Positions 11,559 to 31,076 of a stretch of DNA of 64,000 nt are shown here, piece by piece. This DNA is from Pseudochrobactrum saccharolyticum (GTDB taxonomy: Bacteria; Pseudomonadota; Alphaproteobacteria; Rhizobiales; Rhizobiaceae), in contig NZ_VZPG01000001.1 of assembly GCF_008801715.1 (NCBI RefSeq), positions 1,302,001 through 1,366,000 on the forward strand. Reading direction: 5' to 3'. The position numbers and the translations under genes are program-made. The notes below the pieces were generated by a model. That model saw nothing but the letters and a program-made list of their open reading frames with translations. It searched no databases and was not told where the DNA came from. The first letter of the stretch is position 1; the number at the start of each line of letters is the position of its first letter.

Positions 11559-12389
11559 TCAATCATCCGTTCTGACGCGCGGGCGCAGAGCCAGAATAGC
11601 TGCGGCTGTCTCTTCAATAGAACGACGCGTCACATCAATCACCGGCCAGTTGTTGCGCTCACAAATATTGCGCGCATAGGCCAGTTCCTGCGCAATATTG
11701 ATACGATCCGTATAGCTCTCCGTATCCAGCCCCGGAGATGTGCCGAGCAAACGGTTCTGACGGATGTGAGAAATACGCTCGGCGCTGGCAATCAGCCCGA
11801 CAACAAGCGGCTTTTTCACATGAAGCAGCGCTTCCGGCAGCGGTATGCCTAAAACCAACGGAATATTAGCCGTTTTGATCCCGCGATTGGCCAGATAAAT
11901 ACTGGTCGGTGTTTTGGATGTGCGGGAAATACCGATCAGAATAATATCGGCTTCTTCCAGATCCGGCGGCAATTGCCCGTCATCATGTTCCATCGTGAAA
12001 TTCAGCGCATCAATCCGGCGGAAATAATCGGCATCCAGCACATGCTGCGCACTGGCACGGCGATGGGCAGGCGCACCGAGATAGGATTGAAAAGTTGCCA
12101 GCACCGGTTCCAGCACCGAGACGCTTGGAATACCCATCTGCGAACAGGCTTCATCAATTTTCAAAGCCAGTTTCTGATCCACCACGGTGTAGAGAACAAT
12201 GCCCGGTTCGGCATCAATATTCTCCAGAATTTTAGCCAGCTGTTTCTCGGTGCGGATCAGCGGATACATGTGCTCAATCGCCCGCGCATGACTGTATTGA
12301 GCCGCCGCCGCACGGCCTGCTGCAAGGAGAGTCTCTCCTGTTGCATCTGAAATCAGATGAAGATGAAAGTAAGAAAGAGTCTTTGTCAC
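11559..12389 (-). CDS. Pyruvate, phosphate dikinase / PEP synthase regulatory protein (DUF299)
   Basis: A 276-residue bifunctional kinase/pyrophosphorylase of the DUF299/PPSR family, which regulates PPDK or PEP synthase by ADP-dependent phosphorylation. The start [12 protein letters not shown], the mid [21 protein letters not shown] and the P-loop-like [18 protein letters not shown] are diagnostic. I place the start at GTG 12389 ([15 protein letters not shown]), as in relatives; the open frame extends to 12482 but that part contains DnaA-box-like sequence of the putative origin. Divergent from hemE. Confidence 0.9.
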
Positions 12390-12812
12390 AGATTTCTCAC
12401 ATCCCTGTTGATGGCTGTGTGTAAAAAGTACCGGCTCAGAGACGTTTTTCTTTGCCTGTTGATTTAAACAGGATTCATCCACAGCGCGCCGGACTGTATA
12501 TTCGTGACAATAAACACTGTGGGTAACAGGAGCAATTCAAAGTTGCACGGAATTCATTCAATGGTTTTCCACAGGATGGGTTTAGTGGTATTTCCAATAA
12601 GTATTGGTTTTTATTGATAAATTTTTAGTCGCATTGCTTTTTCCCGTTTGATGGGCAATTTATCCACATCAGCCGGTTTTCATGATCGTCCTGTGGGAAA
12701 ACTCAGGGAAACATTTAATCCCCGTTATCAACAGACTCTAAGAATCATAAGAATCCAAAAATCATCACTTTCTTTATGGGATAACCGGGGAAAACCGGTG
12801 TGGGTAAATCGC
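12390..12812. other. oriC: Putative chromosome replication origin (oriC)
   Basis: The PPSR-hemE gap contains one exact DnaA box TTATCCACA (12660-12668) and six near matches: 12475-12483, 12519-12527 (complement), 12565-12573, 12692-12700 (complement), 12725-12733 and 12799-12807 (complement). An AT-rich stretch lies at 12581-12635. Three GANTC (CcrM) sites fall within 22 bases at 12734-12755, plus one at 12473. In Caulobacter and in Sinorhizobium the origin is next to hemE. Genes on the left side of this gap run left and those on the right run right, as expected for divergent replication. No replication data are available here. Confidence 0.75.
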
Positions 12813-18154: not shown

Positions 18155-19483
18155 ATGTCAGTGCAGTCTTTTCATCACGATACTATTTTTGCGCTTTCAA
18201 GCGGGCGTTTGCCTTCAGGCGTGGCAATTATCAGATTATCAGGCCCAAAAACTCGATTCATTACCGAAACTATCATTGGAAAATTGCCAGAAGCGCGAAA
18301 AGCCGTATTCAGTAATCTTAAAAATAAAACAGGCGAAGTTTTGGACAGCGGTCTGACACTTTTTTTTGAGGGACCTAAAAGCTTTACTGGAGAAGATTGT
18401 GCGGAATTTCATATTCACGGCGGTATTGCTGTGGTTGAAAAATTTCTGGAAAGCCTGTCAGAATTTGAAAAATGCCGTTTAGCCGAAGCCGGAGAATTTA
18501 CGCGTCGCGCATTTGCGAATGGCAAGATGGATTTGACGATGGCCGAAGGGCTGGCCGATCTGATTTCCGCTGAAACAGAAACGCAAAGACGTTTAGCGCA
18601 GCAAGTTGCTTCCGGCGCGCAACGCAATCTTTACATGGACTGGCGACAAAAACTCATTCAAGCGCGTGCATTTATCGAGGCGGAACTTGATTTTGCCGAT
18701 GAAGGCGATGTACCGGGATCAGTATCGGATCGCGTCTGGAGTGAGATGCAGGATCTTAGTGTAAAGATTGAAAAACATATTGAAGACGGAAAACGCGGGT
18801 CAATGCTGCGTGACGGTTTTCATATTGTGATTATTGGCGCACCGAATGCCGGAAAATCCAGTCTGATGAATTTACTGGCAGCACGTGATGTGGCTATTAT
18901 TTCTGATGAGGCCGGTACAACGCGCGATCTGCTTGAAGTGAAGTTAAATTTGAATGGCGTTGCAACTTATGTAACAGACACAGCAGGCATTCGGGAAACA
19001 ACAGGTAAAGTTGAGCAAATTGGCATTCAGCGAGCGATAGACAAAGCTGCGGAAGCAGATTTGATTTTATACATAGAGGATATTTCCAACCCTATCACGG
19101 TAGACATTTCTGAGTTCCAGACAGATATTTGGACGATTGGCAACAAAGCCGACCTTAAATCTGAAACCATACCAAACTATGACTATTTGATCTCGACCAA
19201 AAATAATGAAGGCATCAACAACCTTCTGGATAGATTAAGTACCTACATTTCAGAGAAAACAAAACTTCAAAACGATGTCGTTCCGACGCGCCGCAGACAT
19301 ATTGATTTATTAAATCAATGCAAATCTGAAATTGAGAAAGCCGTTAATTCGAAAACCCTACCACTGGAATTAAGAGCTGAAAATTTACGCATTGCCTCTC
19401 AGCACCTTGGAAAAATTACCGGTGACGTAGACGTAGAGGATATTCTCGATCTCGTATTCTCTCAATTCTGTATCGGAAAATGA
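18155..19483 (+). CDS. mnmE: tRNA modification GTPase MnmE
   Basis: With MnmG it installs the cmnm5 group on U34 of certain tRNAs. The 442-residue protein has the N-terminal folate-binding domain (TIFALSSGRLPSGVAIIRLSGP), a central G domain with GAPNAGKSS, GTTRD, DTAG and NKADLKS, and the C-terminal FCIGK with the conserved cysteine. The stop codon TGA is the first three bases of a parS-like site. First gene of the mnmE-mnmG-rsmG-parA-parB group. Confidence 0.97.
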   Translation: MSVQSFHHDTIFALSSGRLPSGVAIIRLSGPKTRFITETIIGKLPEARKAVFSNLKNKTGEVLDSGLTLFFEGPKSFTGEDCAEFHIHGGIAVVEKFLESLSEFEKCRLAEAGEFTRRAFANGKMDLTMAEGLADLISAETETQRRLAQQVASGAQRNLYMDWRQKLIQARAFIEAELDFADEGDVPGSVSDRVWSEMQDLSVKIEKHIEDGKRGSMLRDGFHIVIIGAPNAGKSSLMNLLAARDVAIISDEAGTTRDLLEVKLNLNGVATYVTDTAGIRETTGKVEQIGIQRAIDKAAEADLILYIEDISNPITVDISEFQTDIWTIGNKADLKSETIPNYDYLISTKNNEGINNLLDRLSTYISEKTKLQNDVVPTRRRHIDLLNQCKSEIEKAVNSKTLPLELRAENLRIASQHLGKITGDVDVEDILDLVFSQFCIGK

Positions 19484-19496
19484 TTCACGTGAAACA
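19481..19496. promoter_or_regulatory. parS: parS-like site (variant TGATTCACGTGAAACA)
   Basis: Differs from the parS consensus TGTTTCACGTGAAACA only at position 3 (T to A). The change creates a GATTC (GANTC) methylation target. It overlaps the mnmE stop codon and lies 3.6 kb from parB. Confidence 0.85.
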
Positions 19497-19530
19497 AATT
19501 TCATGATATAGGCTGATTAACAATCAGAGA

Positions 19531-19546
19531 TGTTTCACGTGAAACA
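19531..19546. promoter_or_regulatory. parS: parS site, perfect palindrome
   Basis: The sequence TGTTTCACGTGAAACA is identical to the consensus ParB-binding centromere site. It lies between mnmE and mnmG. Confidence 0.95.
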
Positions 19547-19671
19547 TTCTGTGGAATCTAAAAACACAATTTGACTCGACTGAATTATTCTGAGTCGACA
19601 GATTCCCACTTCTGAAATTCTTGTACACTCTTGAGTTATGTGTTCCCTTTTCAGAGAGAACATGAGAATGA

Positions 19672-19687
19672 TGATTCACGTGAAACC
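19672..19687. promoter_or_regulatory. parS: parS-like site (variant TGATTCACGTGAAACC)
   Basis: Two differences from consensus: A at position 3 (giving a GATTC site) and C at position 16. It lies 22 bases before the mnmG start, in the 5' untranslated region. Confidence 0.8.
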
Positions 19688-19708
19688 AAACAAGTTTTGG
19701 ATATGATT

Positions 19709-21598
19709 ATGACAGGTTTTTACGACGTCATTGTTATTGGTGGTGGTCATGCCGGGACAGAAGCTGCCGCAGCATCAGCAAGAACCGGCGCTAAAACTGC
19801 TTTAGTAACGCATCATTTTGATACGATCGGTGTTATGTCCTGTAATCCAGCTATTGGCGGATTAGGAAAGGGACAGCTCGTCCGTGAAATTGATGCGCTT
19901 GATGGTTTAATGGGTAAAGCTGCCGATCAGGCAGGTATTCAGTTTCGTCTATTGAATCGTCGTAAAGGTCCTGCTGTTCGTGGCCCGCGCACTCAGGCGG
20001 ATCGCAAATTATACCGTCTGGCTATTCAAAACTTCATCAGAGAACAGCAAAACCTGACGGTCATTGAAGGTGGTGCAGCAGATATTCTCGTTGAAAATGG
20101 TGTAGTCAAAGCTGTTCAACTCATGGATGGTACAATTATCAATTGTGCATCTGTTGTGCTGACAAGCGGAACATTCTTGAATGGCCTTATTCATATTGGT
20201 GAGAAAACTATCCCTGCTGGACGCATGGGTGAAAAACCGGCACTGGGACTATCTGAACGTTTGATTGGTCTTGGCTTTGCTTTAGGTCGTTTGAAAACCG
20301 GTACGCCTTGCCGTATTGATGGCAAGACGATTGACTGGGCAAGTCTGGATAAACAATCAGCAGATGAAGATCCGGTTCCGTTTTCAATGATGACGGATAA
20401 GATCACAGTACCACAAATTGATTGCGGAATTACACGGACAACGGATGCGACGCATCAATTGATCCGCGATAACATCCATCGCTCGGCAATGTATTCAGGG
20501 AATATTGAAGGCATTGGCCCTCGGTATTGTCCGTCGATTGAGGATAAAATCGTCAAATTTGGCGACCGTGACGGGCATCAGATTTTTCTTGAGCCGGAAG
20601 GTCTTGATGATGATACTGTTTATCCTAATGGTATTTCGACCAGCCTGCCGGAAGATGTGCAGCTTGATATTTTGAAAACCATACCCGGATTGGAGCATGC
20701 GAAAATGCTGCAGCCAGGCTATGCTATTGAATATGACTTTATTGATCCGCGCGAATTGCAGCGCAGCCTTGAAACTCGTCGGGTTAAAGGTCTGTTCTTA
20801 GCTGGCCAGATTAATGGTACAACCGGTTATGAAGAGGCCGGAGCACAAGGCTTACTTGCTGGTTTGAACGCTTCCAGACATGCCGGTGGCAGTGAGCCGG
20901 TTATTCTTCAGCGTACAGAAGCCTATATCGGTGTGATGATTGATGATCTGACAGCGCGTGGTGTTAGTGAACCATATCGCATGTTTACATCGCGTGCAGA
21001 ATTCAGACTTTCACTTCGTGCAGATAATGCCGACAGTCGTTTGACGCCTTTGGGTGAAAACTGGGGACTTATTGGTTCAGCGCGGCAAACACGCTTTAAT
21101 GAGAGAAAACAAGAGCTGGATCAGGCGAGGGAGCTTGCTCAATCCTTATCCATTACACCAAATGCTGCGGCTGGTTTTGGATTGAATCTCAACAAAGATG
21201 GGATTCGCCGCACGCTTTATGATCTGCTTTCCTATCCGGATATTAATCTCGAGCGTCTCACAGAAGTCTGGCCGGAGCTTTCTGGTTTGTCTTCTGCTAC
21301 AAAAGAAGCTCTGGAAATTGAAGCGCAATATTCTGTTTATCTGGATCGTCAGACAGCGGATATTGCCGTGATGGAACGTGAAGAGCAGTTGATTATACCA
21401 CGATCAATCCAATTCTCGACAATTTCTGGCCTTTCCCTTGAATTGAAGCAAAAGCTTGAGAAGCGTCAGCCTTCAAATATTGCAGAAGCGCAAAGAATTG
21501 AGGGGATGACGCCTGCTGCGATCGCATTATTGATAACACATATCCGTAGACATGGTATTGCACAGGATATTTCGGGTGATTTGGCAAAACCAGCATGA
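19709..21598 (+). CDS. mnmG: tRNA uridine 5-carboxymethylaminomethyl modification enzyme MnmG (GidA)
   Basis: FAD enzyme that partners MnmE in U34 modification. The start [20 protein letters not shown] at 19709 fits the family; the open frame extends to 19631 but that part contains a parS-like site. FAD-binding [44 protein letters not shown] and the C-terminal ARRHG-type helical domain are present, 629 residues in all. Its last codon overlaps the rsmG start (ATGA). Confidence 0.96.
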
Positions 21599-22227
21599 CA
21601 AAAGATAAATATTTTGATTCACTGAAACAAATATACCCATCTGTTTCACGTGAAACAGCCGATGATTTGATTGGTTTTGAAACACTGTTCAAAAAATGGT
21701 CCAAAGCAATCAATCTGGCTTCGCCAAATACACTGGAAACTCTGTGGGAACGTCACATTCTTGATAGTGTTCAGCTTTTTAAATTGGCACCTCAAGCAAA
21801 ACAGTGGCTGGATTTAGGATCAGGCGGCGGTTTCCCAGGTGTTGTTTTGGCAATACTGCTGAAAGAAACCGGCGGTTCAATAAGACTGGTTGAGAGTAAT
21901 AGTAAGAAATCAGCGTTTTTGAGAAATGCATTGGCTCAATTCCAAACGCACGGACAGGTTGTGAATGCCAGAATTGAAAGCTGTTATCAGCAAATTCAGG
22001 TTCCGGAAATCATCACTGCCAGAGCCTTGGCTTCGCTGGACAAGCTGTTTGAACTGACAGAACCGTGGATGACAAAAGGTGCTAAGGCTTTGTTTCAAAA
22101 AGGGCGGGACTATCAGCGTGAAATTGATGAAAGTCTGCTGAACTGGAAATTTGATCTTGTACGACATGGAAGCGCAATAGAAGCGGATTCAGTCATTCTG
22201 GAAATCAGTAATTTACAACGCCGTTGA
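21595..22227 (+). CDS. rsmG: 16S rRNA (guanine(527)-N7)-methyltransferase RsmG (GidB)
   Basis: SAM-dependent methyltransferase acting on G527 of 16S rRNA. The 210-residue product contains the SAM motif [30 protein letters not shown] and [10 protein letters not shown]. It overlaps mnmG by four bases, the classical gid operon. A perfect parS site is embedded in its coding sequence (21642-21657), encoding SVSRETA. Confidence 0.95.
21642..21657. promoter_or_regulatory. parS: parS site inside rsmG, perfect palindrome
   Basis: TGTTTCACGTGAAACA, identical to the 16-bp consensus and located in codons 16-21 of rsmG, 1.5 kb before parB. Confidence 0.95.
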
Positions 22228-22281
22228 ATGGCAATGACATTGAATGAGCATTGAAAACGGAAGTTATTCGGGACAATTATT

Positions 22282-23082
22282 ATGAATAACAGAACACGGA
22301 TTATAACGATCGCGAACCAGAAAGGCGGCGTGGGAAAAACCACAACTGCTATTAATCTGGCGACTGCTTTGGCTGCAATCGGTGAAAATGTATTGATTGT
22401 TGATCTCGATCCGCAGGGCAATGCCAGTACCGGACTTGGAGTTGACCGTAAAAATCGTCCATTGTCATCTTATGATGTGCTGACGCAGAATGCTTCTGTG
22501 CCGGATGCAGCAATTGCGACTGATGTACCAAATCTTTATCTGGTTGCATCGACGCTGGATTTGCTCGGTATTGAAATGGAAATTTCCCATGCGCCGGACA
22601 GAACCAGACGTTTGCGTGATGCGCTGCGCTTTGATTCAGGTATTGCCGATCATTTCAGCTATATTCTGATTGATTGCCCGCCGTCACTCAATCTTCTGAC
22701 ATTGAATGCAATGGCTGCCGCAGACTCTGTTCTGGTGCCGTTGCAGTGTGAGTTTTTTGCTCTGGAGGGTCTCAGCCAGCTGCTCGAAACTGTCAATCAG
22801 GTGCGCAATTCGCTTAATCCTGAATTGTCGATTCAGGGCGTTGTGCTGACCATGTATGACAGCCGAAACAATCTGGCCAATCAGGTTGTTGATGATGTGC
22901 GCGCCTTTATGGGCGAGAAGGTTTACCGGACTGTTATTCCGCGCAACGTGCGGGTATCGGAAGCACCGTCTCATGGTAAACCGGCCATTCTTTATGATCT
23001 GAAATGCGCAGGAAGTCAGGCCTATCTTCAGCTGGCATCCGAAGTGATCCAGCGGGAACGCCAGCTTCGTACCGCAGCATGA
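22282..23082 (+). CDS. parA: Chromosome partitioning ATPase ParA
   Basis: A 266-residue ParA/Soj-type ATPase that moves ParB-parS complexes. The deviant Walker A KGGVGKTTTAINLA, the DLDPQGNASTGLG motif and IDCPPSLNLLTLNAM (Walker B) are all present. There is no long N-terminal helix-turn-helix extension, so it is a chromosomal type. 51 bases separate it from parB; both follow rsmG, the usual origin-proximal arrangement. Confidence 0.97.
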   Translation: MNNRTRIITIANQKGGVGKTTTAINLATALAAIGENVLIVDLDPQGNASTGLGVDRKNRPLSSYDVLTQNASVPDAAIATDVPNLYLVASTLDLLGIEMEISHAPDRTRRLRDALRFDSGIADHFSYILIDCPPSLNLLTLNAMAAADSVLVPLQCEFFALEGLSQLLETVNQVRNSLNPELSIQGVVLTMYDSRNNLANQVVDDVRAFMGEKVYRTVIPRNVRVSEAPSHGKPAILYDLKCAGSQAYLQLASEVIQRERQLRTAA

Positions 23083-23133
23083 AACTGACTATTCGATTCG
23101 ACTACGTAACAATTTGCAGAAAGCATTCAACTG

Positions 23134-24012
23134 ATGAACGATGATCCTTCAAAAAAGCGTCTTGGTCGCGGTCTGGCAGCTCTGATTGGGGATATCGACC
23201 GGCCTGTGGAAGAACGCAAGGCACCGGTTCCGCTTGAACGTTATGTGCCTATTGAATTTGTAAGCCGTAATCCGCGCAATCCGCGTCGCATTTTTACGGA
23301 AGCTGAGCTGGAAGATCTGGCACAGTCCATTCGTGAGCATGGCATTGTACAGCCGATTGTCGTGCGTCCGGCACCAGAAAATCGTGAGCATTTTGAGCTG
23401 ATTGCCGGTGAGCGTCGTTGGCGTGCGGCACAGCGTGCCGGTTTAACCGAAATTCCGGTTATTATGCGCGATGTGGATGATCGCGTTGCTCTTGAGCTGG
23501 CAATTATCGAAAACGTTCAGCGTGCTGATCTGAACCCTGTTGAAGAAGCAATGGGTTATCAGTTGCTGATTGATGAGCATGATTATACGCAAGCTGATCT
23601 GGCACAGGTTATCGGTAAGAGCCGCAGTCATGTTGCAAATACGCTGCGTCTTCTTAAACTGCCGACAGAAGTACAGGGGCTGATCAATGATGGTGCTTTG
23701 ACTGCCGGTCATGCGCGCACACTGATTACAATGGAAAATCCTCAGGCTGTTGCAGAACGCATCGTCAAAGAAGGTCTGTCAGTCCGTCAGGTTGAGGCTC
23801 TGTCTCAGGCTGAGAGCAAGGGTATTCCGGCGGTTAAGCCGGAACGTGCACCGGTTGAAAAAGATGCTGATACACGGGCATTAGAAAAGCTGCTTTCTGA
23901 TGTAACCGGTATGAAAGTTGAAATTAATCATCGTGATCGTGGTGGCGAAGTTCGCATCCGTTATAGTTCTCTTGAACAATTGGATGAAATTTGCCGCCGC
24001 TTGCAAAGCTAA
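23134..24012 (+). CDS. parB: Chromosome partitioning protein ParB
   Basis: The 292-residue CTPase/DNA-binding partner of ParA that loads at parS. It has the RLGRGLAALIGD N-terminal ParA-interaction motif, the IRSLPRNPRxF-like segment (SRNPRNPRRIF), the CTP-binding GERRWRAAQRAG and ENVQRADLNPVEEA motifs, a helix-turn-helix (TQADLAQVIGKSRSHVANTLRLLKLP) and a C-terminal dimerisation domain. Several parS sites lie 1.5-3.7 kb upstream. Confidence 0.97.
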   Translation: MNDDPSKKRLGRGLAALIGDIDRPVEERKAPVPLERYVPIEFVSRNPRNPRRIFTEAELEDLAQSIREHGIVQPIVVRPAPENREHFELIAGERRWRAAQRAGLTEIPVIMRDVDDRVALELAIIENVQRADLNPVEEAMGYQLLIDEHDYTQADLAQVIGKSRSHVANTLRLLKLPTEVQGLINDGALTAGHARTLITMENPQAVAERIVKEGLSVRQVEALSQAESKGIPAVKPERAPVEKDADTRALEKLLSDVTGMKVEINHRDRGGEVRIRYSSLEQLDEICRRLQS

Positions 24013-24029
24013 TTTACTAAAAAATAAAA

Positions 24030-24062
24030 GAAAAGCCGGTCTGAGTACCGGCTTTTTTATTA
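24030..24062 (+). terminator. Terminator after parB
   Basis: AAAGCCGGT (24032-24040) and ACCGGCTTT (24047-24055) form a 9-bp stem followed by a T-run TTTTATT. It sits between convergent parB and holA. Confidence 0.9.
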
Positions 24063-24070
24063 TGATGAAA

Positions 24071-25117
24071 TCAACGTCTTTGTTTATTTCTTATTGCTTC
24101 TACTGTCAGAGCAATAAAAGCCTGTCTGATGATTGCTGTTGACAGGGTCGCATTCTGTCGGCTTTCAAGAACTGTGCGCTGAAGCCTGTCTGTCACCTTG
24201 TTGAGCGCTGCAACGCTCCAAAGTCCTAAAGCCGTCTCAACCAGCTTTTTACGGGCGAAGAAAATCGGTGGTTTTGCAGAATTGACAACAAGTCCTGCCG
24301 GTACATTTCCTGTTTCCATAGCATAGCGCAATGTCTGTAATTGGCTGAACTGGCGGATAGCTGAATTGACGAGCAGGAAAGGGTGGGTGCCGGTATTGAC
24401 TACGCGGTCAAAGGCAATGTTGAACTTTGGCAGATCACCAATCAGAACAGCGTCGATCACCTCATCCTGAGAAAGAGCGGCGACATCGCCGACAGATTCC
24501 CGCACATCTTCAAGTTCAATACGCTGCTGGCCGCGCGCATAAAGGCAAAGCTTTTCAAGTTCACCGCGTGTGGCCAGACGGTCACCGCCAAGGCTCAGGC
24601 GCAGAAACTGACGGGCATCATTGGAAATTTGCAAATGATTGGCTTGCAACACATCGTCGATTAAACCGTCAATGCCGCGCGCATCATCGCTATAGCAGGG
24701 CAGAGCCATGGCTGTGGAGCCGTTTTCCACATTGGTGCGCAGTGCTGCACCTTTTTTCAGATCACCAGCCTCAACCAGAATATAGGTGTCCTGAGGTGGT
24801 TCTGAAATCAGGTTTTTAACGGCCTCAGCCAGATTTTTTTGTGCCGAAGCATTTTTAATCCAGATCAGACGATCTCCGCCGAACATGGAAATTGTTCTGG
24901 CTTCATCGATCAGGCGGGCAGGGTCTTTGTCTATTTCATCCGCTTCAATCCGTAAAACCGCAAACGGATCATCGAGAGGCAGGCCGGTCAATTTGGCGAA
25001 TTTTGCGCCGCGCTCACTAACAAGACCTTTGTCGGGACCATAGAGCAAGACTACCGTTCCGGTTTGAGCCGGACGCGCGAGAAACCCATCAACTTCATGT
25101 GCTTTTTTCTGTGCCAT
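24071..25117 (-). CDS. holA: DNA polymerase III subunit delta
   Basis: The clamp-loader delta subunit, which opens the sliding clamp. The 348-residue protein has the family N-terminus VLLYGPDKGLVSERGAKFAKL, LIWIKNAS, and SLGGDRLATRGELEKLCLYA. In many relatives holA follows leuS and lptE; here an ABC transporter cluster lies upstream instead, separated by a terminator. Identification is by overall family pattern. Confidence 0.92.
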   Translation of the reverse strand: MAQKKAHEVDGFLARPAQTGTVVLLYGPDKGLVSERGAKFAKLTGLPLDDPFAVLRIEADEIDKDPARLIDEARTISMFGGDRLIWIKNASAQKNLAEAVKNLISEPPQDTYILVEAGDLKKGAALRTNVENGSTAMALPCYSDDARGIDGLIDDVLQANHLQISNDARQFLRLSLGGDRLATRGELEKLCLYARGQQRIELEDVRESVGDVAALSQDEVIDAVLIGDLPKFNIAFDRVVNTGTHPFLLVNSAIRQFSQLQTLRYAMETGNVPAGLVVNSAKPPIFFARKKLVETALGLWSVAALNKVTDRLQRTVLESRQNATLSTAIIRQAFIALTVEAIRNKQRR

Positions 25118-25170
25118 ATGTCTGCTTACAACAAAGGCAGCTAAAGTGAAATCCGTGTTTCAGCTTTCAA

Positions 25171-25206
25171 ATAAAAATGCCGCGGGATGAGCGCGGCATT
25201 TTTTGA
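25171..25206 (-). terminator. Terminator after the ABC transporter ATPase gene
   Basis: AAAATGCCGCG (25174-25184) with CGCGGCATTTT (25192-25202). Read leftward, a TTTTTATTTG tract follows the stem, fitting an end for the ABC genes before holA. Confidence 0.8.
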
Positions 25207-25226
25207 ACTTCAGATGACAGTCCTAT

Positions 25227-26021
25227 TTATTGGATCAGCAATGCATCATCATCCAGTGTTTCACCGCGTACTTTTTTGAACATATCAATCAGGTCTTTAA
25301 CGGTAAGGTTCTTACGCTCATCTCCGGAAACATCGAGGATGATATTACCGCCATGCAGCATGATTGTACGGGTCCCGTAATCAAGTGCCTGCTGCATGGA
25401 GTGCGTTACCATCATCGTCGTCAGCTTGTTTTCACTGACTAACTTGGCTGTGAGTTTCATGATGAAATCTGCCATGCCCGGATCAAGCGCAGCCGTATGT
25501 TCATCAAGCAGCAAGACTTCTGATTTTGTCAGGGTGGCCATGATGAGAGACAGTGCTTGACGCTGACCACCGGAGAGCAGATCCATACGATCCTGCACAC
25601 GGTTTTCCAGACCGAGATTAAGCCCTGCAATGCGTTCGCGGAACAGTTCACGACGCTTATGATTAAGCGCATGGGACAGGCCACGCTTTTGACCGCGCAT
25701 GGCTGCGAGGGCAAGGTTCTCTTCAATCGATAATGCTCCACAGCTGCCGGTCAGCGGGTCCTGAAACACGCGTGCTACCATGGAGGCACGGTCAGCGGTC
25801 GATTGTTTGGTGACATCTTTATTGCCGATCAGGATTTTTCCTTCAGAGGCCTGAACATCACCGGCGAGGGCACCGAGCAGGGTTGATTTACCCGCACCAT
25901 TGGAACCGATTACAGTAACAAATGTGCCTTCTTCAATCTTCAGATTGATGCCGGAAAGTGCCTGTTTCTGCAGAGGTGTACCACGACCGAACACAACACC
26001 AAGATTTGAGACTTCAATCAT
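25227..26021 (-). CDS. ABC transporter ATP-binding protein (TrpZ/branched-chain type)
   Basis: A 264-residue cytoplasmic ATPase. Walker A IGSNGAGKSTLL is at about residues 38-49, the Q-loop at RVFQDPLTGSCG, signature LLSGGQRQALSL, Walker B VLLLDEHTAALDPG and the H-loop THSMQQAL. It overlaps the permease gene by four bases (ATGA). With the permease and the downstream-facing binding-protein gene at 27248 it makes a three-part importer of the type annotated as TrpXYZ in streptococci; substrate is unproven. Confidence 0.9.
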   Translation of the reverse strand: MIEVSNLGVVFGRGTPLQKQALSGINLKIEEGTFVTVIGSNGAGKSTLLGALAGDVQASEGKILIGNKDVTKQSTADRASMVARVFQDPLTGSCGALSIEENLALAAMRGQKRGLSHALNHKRRELFRERIAGLNLGLENRVQDRMDLLSGGQRQALSLIMATLTKSEVLLLDEHTAALDPGMADFIMKLTAKLVSENKLTTMMVTHSMQQALDYGTRTIMLHGGNIILDVSGDERKNLTVKDLIDMFKKVRGETLDDDALLIQ

Positions 26022-26899
26022 TTGGAAGCTCCTCCGCGACGAAGGCGTGGCAGAATGAGTGCCAGTGTGACCAGTACGGCTGTTGCCAGATTAAGGTCAG
26101 ACGCTTTGAGCCCGATGAAATCACTGCTCAGCGCCAGCTGGATGGCGATACGATAAAGTATGGAACCAATGATACAGCCGATCAGCGCCCAAAGCAAAAA
26201 GCGCGTGCGGAATAATGTTTCACCGATAATCACTGCGGCAAGACCGACAACAATTGTGCCGACACCGGAGGTGACATCTGCAAAGCCGTTTGTCTGGGCA
26301 AATAATGCGCCGCCAAGAGCCACCAGAGCATTGGACATAGCCATGCCGAGATAAATCTGACGATCGGTTTTCACGCCCTGTGCGCGTGCCATACGCGCAT
26401 TGGTACCGGTTGCACGCATGGCAAGACCGATATTGCTCTCCAGAAAACGCCAGATGAGCAGGGCGGCGATGATAACAAGAACACCAACAAAAAGCGGACG
26501 CACATAATATTCAGGAACACCTAACCCATAAAAAGGTGAGATCATTGTATCCTGATTAATCAGAGCGACGTTCGGCTTGCCCATCACACGCAGATTGACT
26601 GAGAAAAGCGCAGTCATGGTAAGGATGGAGGCCAGAAGATTAAGGATGCCGAAGCGGATATTCAATGTTGCGGTTACAAGTCCGGCAACAGCGCCTGCCA
26701 TCATGGCAATCAGCGCGGCAAGCCACGGATTAACACCGGCAATAATTAAAACAGCAGTAACAGCGGCGCCGAGTGGAAAGGAACCATCCACAGTCAGATC
26801 TGGAAAATCAAGCACACGAAACGACAGATATACGCCGAGGGCTACAAATGAAAAGACCAGACCTAATTCGACCGCACCCCAAAAAGCGATCAGACTCAC
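26018..26899 (-). CDS. ABC transporter permease (branched-chain/ribose superfamily)
   Basis: A 293-residue integral membrane protein with about eight hydrophobic segments. The start is GTG 26899 (VSLIAFWGAVELGLVFSFVALG), supported by AAGGA 8 bases upstream; an ATG-like extension to 26950 is not conserved in my memory of the family. The DLTVDGSFPLGAAV and MRATGTNARMARAQGVKT segments are characteristic of the permease paired with ABC_sub_bind-type binding proteins. Operon partner of the ATPase gene. Confidence 0.9.
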   Translation of the reverse strand: MSLIAFWGAVELGLVFSFVALGVYLSFRVLDFPDLTVDGSFPLGAAVTAVLIIAGVNPWLAALIAMMAGAVAGLVTATLNIRFGILNLLASILTMTALFSVNLRVMGKPNVALINQDTMISPFYGLGVPEYYVRPLFVGVLVIIAALLIWRFLESNIGLAMRATGTNARMARAQGVKTDRQIYLGMAMSNALVALGGALFAQTNGFADVTSGVGTIVVGLAAVIIGETLFRTRFLLWALIGCIIGSILYRIAIQLALSSDFIGLKASDLNLATAVLVTLALILPRLRRGGASK

Positions 26900-27247
26900 A
26901 ATAATGTTCCTTCGGCTTGTGCAGACGGCCGGCACTCTCAAACGGGTCAATCACAGTTCTGTTTTGACCGTCTGATAATACGGGGCAGCCTGCCTGTTGA
27001 AATCTGAGTATCTTTTGTTTTGCGGTCTGTGCCGGATTTAAAAGATACAAAGGAGATGATCCGGATATTGAGGTCTTAAAAATTGAACCCGAATATCCGG
27101 ATGATGAAAAACCGGTAAAGCAACTTTACCGGCTAGAGCATAATTCCTTAAACTTGAATCAGTTTAAGGTAAAATTATGCTCTAATTTTAAAGTGTTAGA
27201 GCGAGTTTTGTGTGCCAAGTCTGGCACACGGCGCTCTAGAATATAGA
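26900..27247. other. Intergenic region between permease and binding-protein genes
   Basis: 348 bases without a supported gene. The half nearer the binding-protein gene (27133-27240) is a RIME-like module C repeat. The remainder contains no clear hairpin terminator, so whether all three transporter genes share one transcript is open. Confidence 0.6.
27133..27240. repeat. RIME-like repeat, module C
   Basis: CTAGAGCATAATT at 27133 pairs with AATTATGCTCTA ending near 27184, enclosing the inner arms TTAAAC/GTTTAA. Then TTAGAGC and a hairpin TGTGCC/GGCACA, ending in GGCGCTCTAG. The plan is the same as at 11434-11540 but arm sequences differ in a compensated way. Confidence 0.85.
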
Positions 27248-28216
27248 TTATTCTTTGATGACTTTGCTTGCGCGGTCGACCACAGCCTGCGGGATTTCAA
27301 TACCCATTTTCTTTGCTGCAACCAGATTGACAACCAGATCTGTACCGGCGGCAACTTTCACCGGAATATCACCAGGCTTTTCGCCCTTCAGAATACGGAC
27401 AACAACTTCACCGGTCTGCTTGCCAACATCATAATAGTTGAAACCGAGAGCGATGAAAGCACCGCGGCTGACGGAATCTGTATCGGCAGTCATCAGAGGA
27501 ATCTTGGCTTCTTCCGCAACACTGACCGCACCTTCAAGGGCAGAAATAATAGTGTTGTCAGTCGGGATATAAATCAGGTCTGCTTTACCGATCAAAGCGC
27601 GGGCTGCGCCCTGAACTTCAGCCGATTTGGTTGCAGCTGATTCAACCACTTCCAGACCACCTTCTTTGGCCGCAACTTTCAGGCCTTCGAGAAGCGAAAT
27701 CGAATTGGCCTCACCGGAATTATAAAGGAAGCCGATGGTCTTTACATTCGGAGCTACTTCTTTGATCAGTTTGATGTGATCAGCAACCGGTGAAAGATCG
27801 GACAGACCGGTGACATTGCCGCCAGGCTTTTCCATGCTTTTAACAAGCTGTGCGCCAACCGGATCAGACACGGCAGTAAACACAACCGGAATATCACGGG
27901 TGCCGGAAACCACGGCCTGCGCAGATGGTGTGGAGATCGGTACAATTACATCCGGTGCTTCACCGATGAACTGACGGGCGATCTGTGCTGCTGTTGCAGG
28001 ATTGCCCTGAGCAGACTGATAGGTGAATTTCAGATTTTCACCTTCTTTAAAACCGGCTGCGGCCAGTGCATCTTTTACACCGTCGCGGGCAGCATCAAGA
28101 GCCGGATGTTCAACAATTGCTGTGACAGCAACACTGACATCTTTGGCATTTGCCGGTGCAGCAATCATTGTTGTGGCCATAGCTGTCGACAGCAAAGCCA
28201 GGAAAAGTGTACGCAT
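27248..28216 (-). CDS. ABC transporter substrate-binding protein (ABC_sub_bind family)
   Basis: A 322-residue periplasmic binding protein. The start MRTLFLALL at 28216 has GAGGGAGA upstream and begins a signal peptide cleaved after about residue 25 (APANA). The mature protein has the family segments VTAIVEHPALDAARDGVKDAL, PVVFTAVSDPVGAQLV, GNVTGLSDLSP and TIGFLYNSGEANS. This family includes the streptococcal tryptophan-binding protein TrpX, but the ligand here is not known. It is upstream of the permease and ATPase genes on the same strand. Confidence 0.92.
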   Translation of the reverse strand: MRTLFLALLSTAMATTMIAAPANAKDVSVAVTAIVEHPALDAARDGVKDALAAAGFKEGENLKFTYQSAQGNPATAAQIARQFIGEAPDVIVPISTPSAQAVVSGTRDIPVVFTAVSDPVGAQLVKSMEKPGGNVTGLSDLSPVADHIKLIKEVAPNVKTIGFLYNSGEANSISLLEGLKVAAKEGGLEVVESAATKSAEVQGAARALIGKADLIYIPTDNTIISALEGAVSVAEEAKIPLMTADTDSVSRGAFIALGFNYYDVGKQTGEVVVRILKGEKPGDIPVKVAAGTDLVVNLVAAKKMGIEIPQAVVDRASKVIKE

Positions 28217-28357
28217 GAAAATCTCCCTCTGTTCCGCGTCCCGATCAAAACGAATAATCAGTTCTCGGAGAGAGGTCAACGCGCATCATATGGGATAGTC
28301 AAGAGGCGGACACTTTAGCGCTATTCTTACCGGCAGGCGTGGCGGTAAAAGCATAGT

Positions 28358-28373
28358 TGTTTCACGTGAATCA
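28358..28373. promoter_or_regulatory. parS: parS-like site (reverse complement of the 19481 variant)
   Basis: TGTTTCACGTGAATCA; its complement is exactly TGATTCACGTGAAACA, the variant seen at 19481. It contains a GAATC (GANTC) target. It lies between the binding-protein gene and the flavoprotein gene, 4.3 kb past parB. Confidence 0.7.
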
Positions 28374-28437
28374 TCGTGGTTAGCAAAAACTTAACGACAT
28401 TTTTTATGATTTACAGGTTTCACGAAATCAAAATCCG

Positions 28438-29565
28438 TTATGCATATTGTTTATGCAGCTCAAGATATTCGCTCAGTTCTTTAGCTGCTGCAGCGCCTGC
28501 GCGATTGGCTCCGATGGTTGATGCCGATGGTCCATACCCAACCAGATGAATGCGCGGATCTTTGACAACTTCAGTAGCCAGTCTGCCGCCCATGATAATA
28601 CCGCCATTGGCTTCGCGGATTTGTAATGGCGCTAGATGATCGAGGGAGCTGCGGAAGCCGGTACACCATAAGATGACATCGGCACGTTGTTCTGTGCCGT
28701 CTGCCCAACGGATACCTGTTTCTGTTATCTCGTTGAACATTGGCAGGCGGTTTAATGCACCACGTTCACGGGCAGCATGCAAAGCAGGGGTGAGGGGAAT
28801 ACCGGTTACAGAAACAACAGAGCCGGGTATCAAACCGCGGCGGACACGATCTTCGACAATAGCCACAGCTGCGCGGCCATCTTCTTCTGTAAATGGTGTT
28901 TCACGAAATTGCGGTTCGCTGCGGGTTACCCATGTTGTTGTGGTGACCTGTGAAATTTCATCAAGCAGCTGCAGAGCGGAAATACCACCGCCGACAATGA
29001 CAACATGTTTACCGATGAATGCTTCAGCTGTCTGATAATCGCGGGTATGAAGCTGCTGTCCTTTGAAAAGTTCAGCACCGGTATAATGCGGTATGACCGG
29101 TGTCTCCCATGTGCCGGTGGCATTGATTAATCCGCGGGCAGTGAAAGTTTCCCTATCGGTTTCAATACGAAAACGCTCATTGCGCTCACAAACAACATTG
29201 ACGCTCACCGGTCTGTAAACCGGCAAATGAAACTTCTTTTCATAGGCCGCATAATATCGGGGAACAGCAATGGATGCTTTGACCTCTGATACTTCGGGCT
29301 CCAGAACATCTGCGAAAGACATACCCGGAAGGTCATGAATCCGGTTTACTGTGCTGAGTGTGAGGGAAGGCCAGCGATATTGCCATGCGCCGCCGGCATC
29401 GGGCGATTTATCGAGAATGATAAAATTGCGGCCTGCTTTCAGACCCAGTTTTTGCAGATGATAAGCAGATGATAAACCGGCCTGTCCGGCACCAATAATC
29501 AGAATATCGGTTTTAAAGGCCATATGCAGTGCCGGTTTTGTTACAGTCTCTTGATTATCACTCAT
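28438..29565 (-). CDS. FAD-dependent oxidoreductase (flavin monooxygenase-like)
   Basis: A 375-residue two-dinucleotide-fold flavoprotein. FAD-binding GAGQAGLSSAYHLQKLG lies near residue 25, the NADPH-binding VIVGGGISALQLLDEI in the middle, and INATGTWETP and ILWCTGFRSSLDHLAPL in the monooxygenase/Trk-type pattern. Substrate is unknown. It stands alone between the transporter genes and a tRNA gene. A start 14 codons further in (Met15) is possible, since no good ribosome site precedes 29565. Confidence 0.8.
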   Translation of the reverse strand: MSDNQETVTKPALHMAFKTDILIIGAGQAGLSSAYHLQKLGLKAGRNFIILDKSPDAGGAWQYRWPSLTLSTVNRIHDLPGMSFADVLEPEVSEVKASIAVPRYYAAYEKKFHLPVYRPVSVNVVCERNERFRIETDRETFTARGLINATGTWETPVIPHYTGAELFKGQQLHTRDYQTAEAFIGKHVVIVGGGISALQLLDEISQVTTTTWVTRSEPQFRETPFTEEDGRAAVAIVEDRVRRGLIPGSVVSVTGIPLTPALHAARERGALNRLPMFNEITETGIRWADGTEQRADVILWCTGFRSSLDHLAPLQIREANGGIIMGGRLATEVVKDPRIHLVGYGPSASTIGANRAGAAAAKELSEYLELHKQYA

Positions 29566-29650
29566 GGCCAGAATCCGCTTTATCGAACAACTAAACCTTA
29601 CTTAGGTTTTTGTTCCGTTCATACAAGCGGTTGGTAGGGGAAGAGAGAAG

Positions 29651-29727
29651 TGGTGATCCCGACTGGATTCGAACCAGTGGCCTACAGATTAGGAATCTGT
29701 CGCTCTATCCTACTGAGCTACGGGACC
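29651..29727 (-). tRNA. tRNA-Arg (anticodon CCT)
   Basis: A complete cloverleaf is readable on the minus strand: acceptor GGTCCCG/CGGGATC, D arm GCTCAGTAGGATAGAGC, anticodon stem ACAGA/TCTGT with loop TTCCTAA (anticodon CCT), T arm ACTGG-TTCGAAT-CCAGT, and an encoded CCA end. It reads AGG codons. Confidence 0.97.
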
Positions 29728-29742
29728 GGATAGTATGGTGCA

Positions 29743-29771
29743 CACATACTGATTTTTTGACCGTAAGCCAA
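29743..29771 (-). promoter_or_regulatory. Possible promoter of tRNA-Arg
   Basis: Read leftward: TTGGCT, 17-base spacer, TATGTG, ending 15 bases before the tRNA gene. Spacing is ideal and the boxes are moderately good. Inferred from sequence only. Confidence 0.4.
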
Positions 29772-29814
29772 GGGCAGGCAGGGCAGAAAATACCGGAATA
29801 GTCTGATGAGAAAT

Positions 29815-29848
29815 AAAAAAGCGAAGAGGGGATTATGCCTCTTCGCTG
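29815..29848 (-). terminator. Terminator after M20 amidohydrolase gene
   Basis: Stem GCGAAGAGG (29821-29829) with CCTCTTCGC (29838-29846); leftward it is followed by TTTTTTATTT. Confidence 0.9.
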
Positions 29849-29879
29849 AACAGAAACCTGTTTAATTTGCAGTCTGAGA

Positions 29880-31076
29880 TCAGGCTGCGATTTTCTCAGC
29901 CGGCGCTAGCTGCGCGTCTTTGAGACGATATTGTGCAAGCTCAACCCAATAGCTCATGCCATAGGGCAGGGCATCATCATTAAAGTCATAGGCCGGATGA
30001 TGCAGGTTTGCGCTCTCGCCATTGCCGAGGAAAATATAGCAACCCGGACGCGCTTCGAGCATATAGGAGAAATCTTCGCCACCCATCATCGGTTCAACTT
30101 CACGGGTGATCGGGCCATTGATGCTGACCTTGTCAGCAACATTGGCGGCGATTTCTGTCTGGCCGGAATGGTTGAATGTCACCGGATAGTTGTTTTTAAA
30201 ATCAAGATCGATCTTGATATTGTTGAGCAGACCAAAGGCTTCACAATGGGCACGCATACGCTGTTCGGCAAAAGCACGATTGTGCTTTGTGAGGCTGCGT
30301 ACTGTGCCCGCGAGCACGGCTTTTTCCGGAATAATATTATAAGCTTCACCGGCATTAAATTTGGTCACTGAGATTACCAATGAATCCAGCGGGTTTGATC
30401 CACGTGAAACAATGCTCTGTAATGCGGTGACCAGTTGGGAGCCGATAACGATCGGATCAATATTGCGATGCGGCTGTGCGGCATGGCCGCCTTTGCCGTT
30501 GATGGTGATGGTAAATTCATCAGTCGCGGCCATGATCGGGCCTTTGCAAACGGCCAGTTCACCGACAGGAATGCCCGGCATATTATGCATGCCGTAAACT
30601 TCAACAATATTGAAGCGCTCCATCATACCGTCTTTGACCATAGCCAGACCACCGGCACCGCCTTCTTCGGCAGGCTGGAAAATGACGATGACTTCGCCGT
30701 AGAAATCACGGGTCTCGCAGAGAATTTTTGCAGCACCGAGCAGCATGGAGGTGTGGCCGTCATGGCCGCAGGAATGTGCCTTGCCCGGATTTTGCGAAAC
30801 CCATTCCGGTGTGCCGGTTTCAGTCAGCGGTAATGCATCCATATCCGCACGCAGACCGATTGCCTGACCTGCACCTTTTTTGCCTTTAATGACGCCGACA
30901 ACACCGGTGCGTCCGATACCGGTCACAACTTCATCACAGCCGAATTCACGCAGTTTTTGTTCTACAAATGCCGCAGTTTCATGCACGTCATAGAGTAATT
31001 CCGGTTTGCTGTGTAAATGTCTGCGCCACAGGCTGACTTCCTGTTTTAATTGTGCGGCGCGATCTAAAAGCGGCAT
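29880..31076 (-). CDS. M20 family amidohydrolase (hippurate hydrolase-like)
   Basis: A 398-residue metallopeptidase-fold amidohydrolase. The start MPLLDRAAQLKQEV at 31076 has GGAGAACAGAA upstream. RRHLHSKPELLYDVHETAAFV, ADMDALPLTE, HSCGHDGHTSMLLGAAKIL, FQPAEEGGAGG and MMGGEDFSYMLEARPG carry the metal ligands of the IAA-amino-acid/hippurate hydrolase branch. The true substrate is unknown; several such paralogues occur in Hyphomicrobiales. A parS-like sequence lies inside the gene at 30396. Confidence 0.92.
   Translation of the reverse strand: MPLLDRAAQLKQEVSLWRRHLHSKPELLYDVHETAAFVEQKLREFGCDEVVTGIGRTGVVGVIKGKKGAGQAIGLRADMDALPLTETGTPEWVSQNPGKAHSCGHDGHTSMLLGAAKILCETRDFYGEVIVIFQPAEEGGAGGLAMVKDGMMERFNIVEVYGMHNMPGIPVGELAVCKGPIMAATDEFTITINGKGGHAAQPHRNIDPIVIGSQLVTALQSIVSRGSNPLDSLVISVTKFNAGEAYNIIPEKAVLAGTVRSLTKHNRAFAEQRMRAHCEAFGLLNNIKIDLDFKNNYPVTFNHSGQTEIAANVADKVSINGPITREVEPMMGGEDFSYMLEARPGCYIFLGNGESANLHHPAYDFNDDALPYGMSYWVELAQYRLKDAQLAPAEKIAA
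30396..30411. promoter_or_regulatory. Weak parS-like site inside the M20 amidohydrolase gene
   Basis: TGATCCACGTGAAACA differs from consensus at positions 3 (A) and 5 (C). Position 3 carries the same substitution as the other variant sites. It could be a chance match in coding sequence. Confidence 0.45.

Follow-up and report, generated by a model that had tools for sequence, protein, structure and literature searches.

Three of the six parS-like sites near the predicted replication origin (oriC) of Pseudochrobactrum saccharolyticum overlap GANTC, the target of the cell-cycle methylase CcrM, and this overlap is conserved within the genus and recurs across the order Hyphomicrobiales. The sites were found in a window of 64,000 nucleotides (the whole stretch of DNA analyzed, G000:C1:1302001-1366000, from a 3.76-Mb genome in 12 contigs), where they stand 7–18 kb from the predicted origin, in and around mnmE-mnmG-rsmG-parA-parB. 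Judging from the patterns described below, we see about an even chance that they are composite parS/CcrM elements, in which the GANTC is under selection and ParB and CcrM interfere with each other. The chromosomal centromere would then hold, besides canonical parS, a second kind of ParB-loading site: a composite form that keeps one half-site canonical and has the other changed from TGTTTCAC to TGANTCAC, a CcrM target. A first-pass annotation, made from the letters alone, had noticed the overlap in the window; set beside the comparative counts, that observation is understated.

Perfect and composite parS sites in the window

Two of the six sites are perfect copies of the palindrome TGTTTCACGTGAAACA, one between mnmE and mnmG (19531..19546) and one within rsmG (21642..21657), where it provides the codons for VSRET. 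The other four all carry A at position 3 (A3) in one half-site. This is the only mismatch at 19481..19496 (plus strand, TGATTCACGTGAAACA) and at 28358..28373 (minus strand), which is the reverse complement of TGATTCACGTGAAACA. The sites at 19672..19687 (plus strand, TGATTCACGTGAAACC) and 30396..30411 (plus strand, TGATCCACGTGAAACA) have two mismatches, the second being C16 and C5, respectively. GATTC lies at 19482-19486 and 19673-19677 and GAATC at 28368-28372. In the first composite site, the TGA doubles as the stop codon of mnmE; the second is 21 bp upstream of the likely mnmG ATG (19709); and the inverse one is intergenic, upstream of a TrpX-like ATP-binding cassette (ABC) substrate-binding gene (TrpX model below cut-off). 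The site at 30396 lies within an amidohydrolase gene (TIGR01891). Our site scan thus agrees with the first-pass annotation on the coordinates and letters of both palindromes, on A3 in all four imperfect sites, on the inverse identity of 19481 and 28358 and on a GANTC in three of the four; the stop codon overlap and the second changes at 19672 and 30396 are additions to it.

The window contains seven sites with three mismatches or fewer (the seventh, at 11812, has three), compared with a mean of 0.34 in dinucleotide shuffles, and none of 100 shuffles reached seven. At one mismatch or fewer, the whole 3.76-Mb genome contains only four sites, the perfect pair and the T3A pair. Because all four sit in the origin cluster, the T3A variant is not randomly scattered, an outcome of the genome-wide scan that the first-pass annotation had proposed. 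The sites with two mismatches comprise 19672, 30396 and three elsewhere, with about one expected (hand estimate). Four non-origin sites (C1:1005187, C1:1116139, C1:1116997, which has a further 14-mer core, GATTCACGTGAAAC, and C8:207) were inspected and are not clearly above chance. C1:1116139 and 1116997 form a parS-like pair 858 bp apart, within a single reading frame that lies about 205 kb away from the cluster, and are probably there by chance.

All six sites, the doubly changed 19672 and 30396 among them, are present in the five of five relatives' regions fetched from the genus. Each of six genus genomes at least 90% complete (P. saccharolyticum included) carries two perfect and two T3A sites in matching arrangement, and two of them (G002 and G006) have one other one-mismatch site each, elsewhere in the genome. 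Spacing varies among relatives, from 19531 to 19672 (141 or 239–243 bp) and from 28358 to 30396 (2012–2870 bp). A relative that is 61% complete, seen on a 7-kb contig only, has reverse-read forms of 28358 and 30396 at 2036 bp from each other (2038 in the window).

With 0–2 mismatches to TGTTTCACGTGAAACA, clustering near oriC and parAB, rarity elsewhere and conservation, the six sites qualify as predicted parS. The genome also encodes CcrM: it has a match to the RAMA domain, a marker of CcrM, above cut-off, and a nearly full-length match to NF050803 at 640 bits, below the curated cut-off of 830. The GANTCs at 19481, 19672 and 28358 accordingly qualify as predicted CcrM targets.

Recurrence of composite sites across Hyphomicrobiales

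Loci were taken from the best 80 of 578 ParA matches, which come from Hyphomicrobiales and a few unplaced metagenome-assembled genomes (MAGs), and the 14-bp parS core was scored at up to two mismatches. The 80 loci contain 332 cores: 171 perfect, 125 with GANTC in exactly one half (99 GATTCAC and 26 GACTCAC) and 36 others. Base-shuffled loci gave a mean of 0.6 cores at one mismatch and 4.4 at two. Over the 664 half-sites, position 3 reads T 538 times, A 125 times, G once and C never, and T3A makes up 99 of the 129 single-mismatch half-sites.

Second mismatches follow the first. Given A3, they hit the N of GANTC (position 4) in 26 of 26 half-sites, all as C, versus 1 of 30 given T3 (Fisher 4e-15, with no correction for phylogeny); two more T3 half-sites, outside the count of 30, combine C4 with C5 (GTCCCAC). 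GANTC in both halves was found at no site in the 80 loci or in 20 further loci, where about seven would be expected under independent halves (hand estimate). Composites are present in 58 of the 80 loci, every one of which retains at least one non-GANTC site. Counted as genus by 400-bp position bins, with genus labels assigned by hand, 48 bins hold composites and 26 hold all other variants.

The altered half is the left one in 79 composites, 37 of them at the mnmE stop, and the right one in 46; no single rule of orientation was found among the 125. Composites supply codons in several frames (DSRET, VSRES, FHVN and THVK), and 46 of the 125 lie inside coding sequence predicted by a crude open reading frame caller. 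Composites fall within aroE, hemE, a CopD-like gene, mnmE and rsmG (names read from translations).

The query GVNTCACGTGAAAC was matched in 84 of 150 genomes drawn across the order. Among 150 matches listed (counted by hand), 119 have GATTC, 11 GACTC, 1 GAATC, 12 GCTTC and 7 others, a GANTC total of 131. A CcrM-type RAMA domain occurs in 146 of the 150 order genomes, above cut-off in 145.

Some Hyphomicrobiales genomes carry 4–10 composite parS sites (ten in G367), and in two loci (L098 and L103) composites are more numerous than other parS sites.

Controls outside the order

Among other alphaproteobacterial orders, the CcrM marker was found in 31 of 31 genomes tested. Their near lack of composites makes the composite parS look like an innovation of Hyphomicrobiales rather than a rule of CcrM bearers, and a GANTC-bearing parS is not a general rule for genomes that combine ParABS with CcrM. 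A search of 170 alphaproteobacterial genomes from other orders gave seven rows with GANTCACGTGAAAC, about or below chance (hand estimate). The main variant elsewhere is C5, both in other alphaproteobacteria and in non-alphaproteobacterial loci: GTTCCAC accounts for 11 of 164 and 14 of 150 half-sites, respectively, and for 1 of 664 in Hyphomicrobiales, where GTCCCAC accounts for 2 of 664.

A set of 149 non-alphaproteobacterial genomes yielded seven GATTC rows and three GCTTC rows. Thirty non-alphaproteobacterial loci, a biased set to which genomes had been added for known GATTC, contain eight GATTC sites in seven loci, all seven from genomes added in this way; the other 23 have none. A RAMA search covered 18 genomes, among them 17 of the 27 from which these loci come, and no match above cut-off was found in the 18, with one match below it. 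Six of the loci without a RAMA match (L132-L134, L142, L144 and L146, of families f25 and f30) have GATTC-type parS sites, which in L132-L134 stand 4.8–8.9 kb from a perfect site.

Alternative explanations

The main rival to selection on the GANTC is a tolerance intrinsic to ParB, which we regard as a possibility worth holding tentatively: the Hyphomicrobiales protein would accept A, or on rare occasions C, as the third base of one half, the GANTC would be a by-product, and the altered sites would act as weaker parS with graded loading. Several observations weigh against a selected GANTC, and those on A3 without RAMA and on C3 also favor tolerance. CcrM alone does not predict composites, as GANTC is found in 1 of the 82 parS cores of the 31 CcrM-marked genomes of other orders. 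Conversely, A3 occurs in 7 of the 149 non-alphaproteobacterial genomes, in families f25, f26 and f30, and its presence in genomes without a RAMA match suggests that ParB may tolerate A3 by itself. At 30396 in the window, A3 comes with GATCC and no GANTC is formed. The N of GANTC is almost only T or C, with GAATC once and GAGTC never among the matches listed, and the 12 GCTTC (C3) matches come from six families there. C3 recurs in at least two genomes each of families f187, f190, f212 and f231 among these matches, so C may be accepted at position 3 too in certain lineages. Composites are lacking in 22 of the 80 loci, including those of Bradyrhizobium, Microvirga and Chelatococcus, and, as the loci are related, the raw counts overstate independence. 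Tolerance is further consistent with C5 (GTTCCAC), the commonest variant elsewhere, being nearly absent in Hyphomicrobiales, as if specificity had shifted, and with Caulobacter parS sites having one conserved half, GTGAAA, in the accessible part of PMC5815017.

ParB residues bear on both sides. Tyr151 is found in 58 of 58 composite loci, compared with 13 of 22 and 6 of 31 among the others, in a tabulation that left out 13 further composite-bearing loci; this correlation with composites also counts for tolerance, and makes Tyr151 a possible candidate for a permissive residue or a specificity change. The recognition helix G-K-S-R-S-H-V-A-N, by contrast, hardly differs between loci that have composites and loci that lack them, which speaks against tolerance, and residues 163, 164, 169, 172 and 173 are invariant in the 58 composite and 22 non-composite loci. 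A change in the recognition helix was considered as a cause of composites and set aside, as no such change was seen between the two kinds of loci. Tolerance also fares poorly with the second mismatches: C4 accompanies A3 26 times, and T3 once alone and twice with C5, a pattern that additive tolerance would not predict.

A second explanation, which we find unlikely, is that the GANTC is a GcrA/CcrM promoter element that serves transcription of mnmG-rsmG-parAB and neighboring genes, with ParB on the same bases coupling it to centromere occupancy. The mnmE-mnmG gap would suit such a role, with 5.4 non-parS GANTC per kb versus 2.5 per kb over the loci; in the window, four GANTC outside parS (19554..19605, between 19531 and 19672) are conserved in four of four aligned sequences (the window and three genus relatives), and the region around 28358 is likely a promoter. 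No promoter would be expected, however, at the 46 of 125 composites in predicted coding sequence, e.g., in Mesorhizobium hemE (by its translation).

Less probable still is a constraint from the mnmE stop codon, whereby a parS slid onto the mnmE end, its TGT was forced to TGA, since TGT there would give read-through, and the other copies arose as duplications. The composite TGA is indeed the stop at 19481 and at 37 of 78 mnmE ends in relatives, but 88 of the 125 composites lie elsewhere, A3 also appears a few bases downstream of TAA (five Bartonella loci) or TAG (two MAGs), and composites occur in other frames and genes. This constraint is insufficient and can at most account for how one site arose. 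A stop codon or amino acid as the general cause was likewise rejected: it would explain a part only, given the 88 composites elsewhere, those past TAA or TAG stops and the different frames (DSRET, FHVN and VSRES).

Chance decay of old parS sites has nothing in its favor beyond the imperfect sequence, is refuted by the six sites being identical genus-wide, the order-wide counts and the dominance of one substitution type, T3A, and is left with a negligible share of our belief; here the first-pass annotation was right to think random decay unlikely. The variant is clustered at the origin and recurrent across Hyphomicrobiales, and extra substitutions in the altered half leave GANTC intact.

Possible consequences for ParB loading

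If the GANTC itself is selected, two adenines would be methylated by CcrM: that of position 3 and, on the complementary strand, the one paired with position 5. In the available description of the Caulobacter ParB-parS crystal structure (PMC7383237), the recognition helix inserts into the major groove of parS. Both CcrM-target adenines of TGATTC would lie in this groove, so that interference between ParB and CcrM would be physically expected. It would most likely be mutual, with methylation state tuning ParB nucleation at composites and ParB, once bound, perhaps shielding them from CcrM. Being close to the origin, composites would become hemimethylated soon after initiation and remain hemimethylated until CcrM is present again. 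The centromere would thus pass through two functional states in each cycle, with the canonical sites always usable. Origin-proximal GANTCs of Caulobacter are hemimethylated in ~80% of cells in a mixed wild-type culture, according to the accessible portion of PMC3973325, and composites could therefore differ from canonical sites through much of S phase.

Methylation might increase or decrease ParB loading, or ParB might do no more than shield the sites. That the Hyphomicrobiales centromere is epigenetically switched, with CcrM methylation of composites turning ParB nucleation up or down at fork passage, is a plausible special case of composite elements under selection, and one that we advance with some doubt. 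The first-pass annotation had suggested such a response of ParB loading to CcrM methylation at a subset of sites, and its interpretation is partly supported. If true, a fully methylated origin and a newly replicated one would offer different numbers of usable parS sites, and segregation and SMC loading would differ accordingly. A centromere site with the target of a cell-cycle methylase would then link replication state to ParB loading directly and physically, which would bear on how origin segregation is timed relative to replication in alphaproteobacteria.

Genomic context

The window ParA is closest, among the named loci found, to those of Brucella and Ochrobactrum (86–89% identity). hemE and oriC are syntenic. 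The cumulative GC skew of the window has its minimum at ~12–13 kb, adjoining hemE at 12648, and six GANTC are clustered within 427 bp that include the hemE start (12329..12755, no strand assigned). Since these three features coincide, oriC was placed at ~12–13 kb, and the six-GANTC cluster is likely oriC itself. Over the window GANTC is depleted, with 103 observed and 267 expected.

The genes around the sites are all on the plus strand: mnmE (18155..19483, NF003661), whose TGA overlaps the first composite site; mnmG, or gidA (19709..21598, TIGR00136); rsmG, or gidB (21595..22227, TIGR00138); parA (22282..23082), named also from gene context as its ParA/MinD-type NCBIfam matches are below their own cut-offs; and parB (23134..24012, TIGR00180), whose nearest match among solved chains is 6t1f, a chromosome-partitioning protein ParB (E 2.4e-73). 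The four GANTC at 19554-19605 in the mnmE-mnmG gap could be a GcrA/CcrM promoter.

Comparison with known systems

No description of the overlap between parS and GANTC, including the string GATTCACGTGAAAC, was found in the literature searched, which covered few subscription papers and others in part. The system resembles the chromosomal ParABS of Caulobacter crescentus and Bacillus subtilis in its 16-bp palindrome, its adjacent parAB genes and a ParB nearest to a solved chromosomal ParB, and, as far as the accessible text of PMC5815017 goes, Caulobacter parS sites likewise keep one half-site conserved. Unlike in these systems, a large share of Hyphomicrobiales sites have a CcrM target in the other half. 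Hyphomicrobiales also differ from the CcrM-marked genomes of other alphaproteobacterial orders, in which 81 of 82 cores lack GANTC.

A more distant comparison builds on the mechanism of RctB in Vibrio cholerae. Dam-dependent initiation there (PMC2865523, available in part) may work alike by analogy, with adenine methylation inside the site of a replicon-maintenance protein. The proteins, the methylase and the process are different, and it is not a relative.

Closer in its components is the shielding of GANTC by MucR in C. crescentus and Sinorhizobium meliloti, where a DNA-binding protein competes with CcrM over a shared GANTC (accessible text of PMC5172544). According to the same text, extra methylase leaves the methylation of GANTCs at the parS locus of Caulobacter unchanged, which could, by analogy, fit shielding by ParB; the text does not state so in the part available. 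Here, unlike in the MucR system, the GANTC is inside the predicted binding sequence of the centromere protein, an overlap that does not appear in that part. For Agrobacterium tumefaciens, chromatin immunoprecipitation sequencing (ChIP-seq) of ParB1 exists (PMC9239152, seen in excerpt). The GANTC-rich repABC modules of secondary replicons also have GANTC near partition sites, for which a control of replication or partition has been suggested in the accessible passages of PMC9040568 and PMC11514494; there, the GANTC is adjacent and not overlapping, and the partners are plasmid-type RepB and parS rather than the chromosomal ParB and parS.

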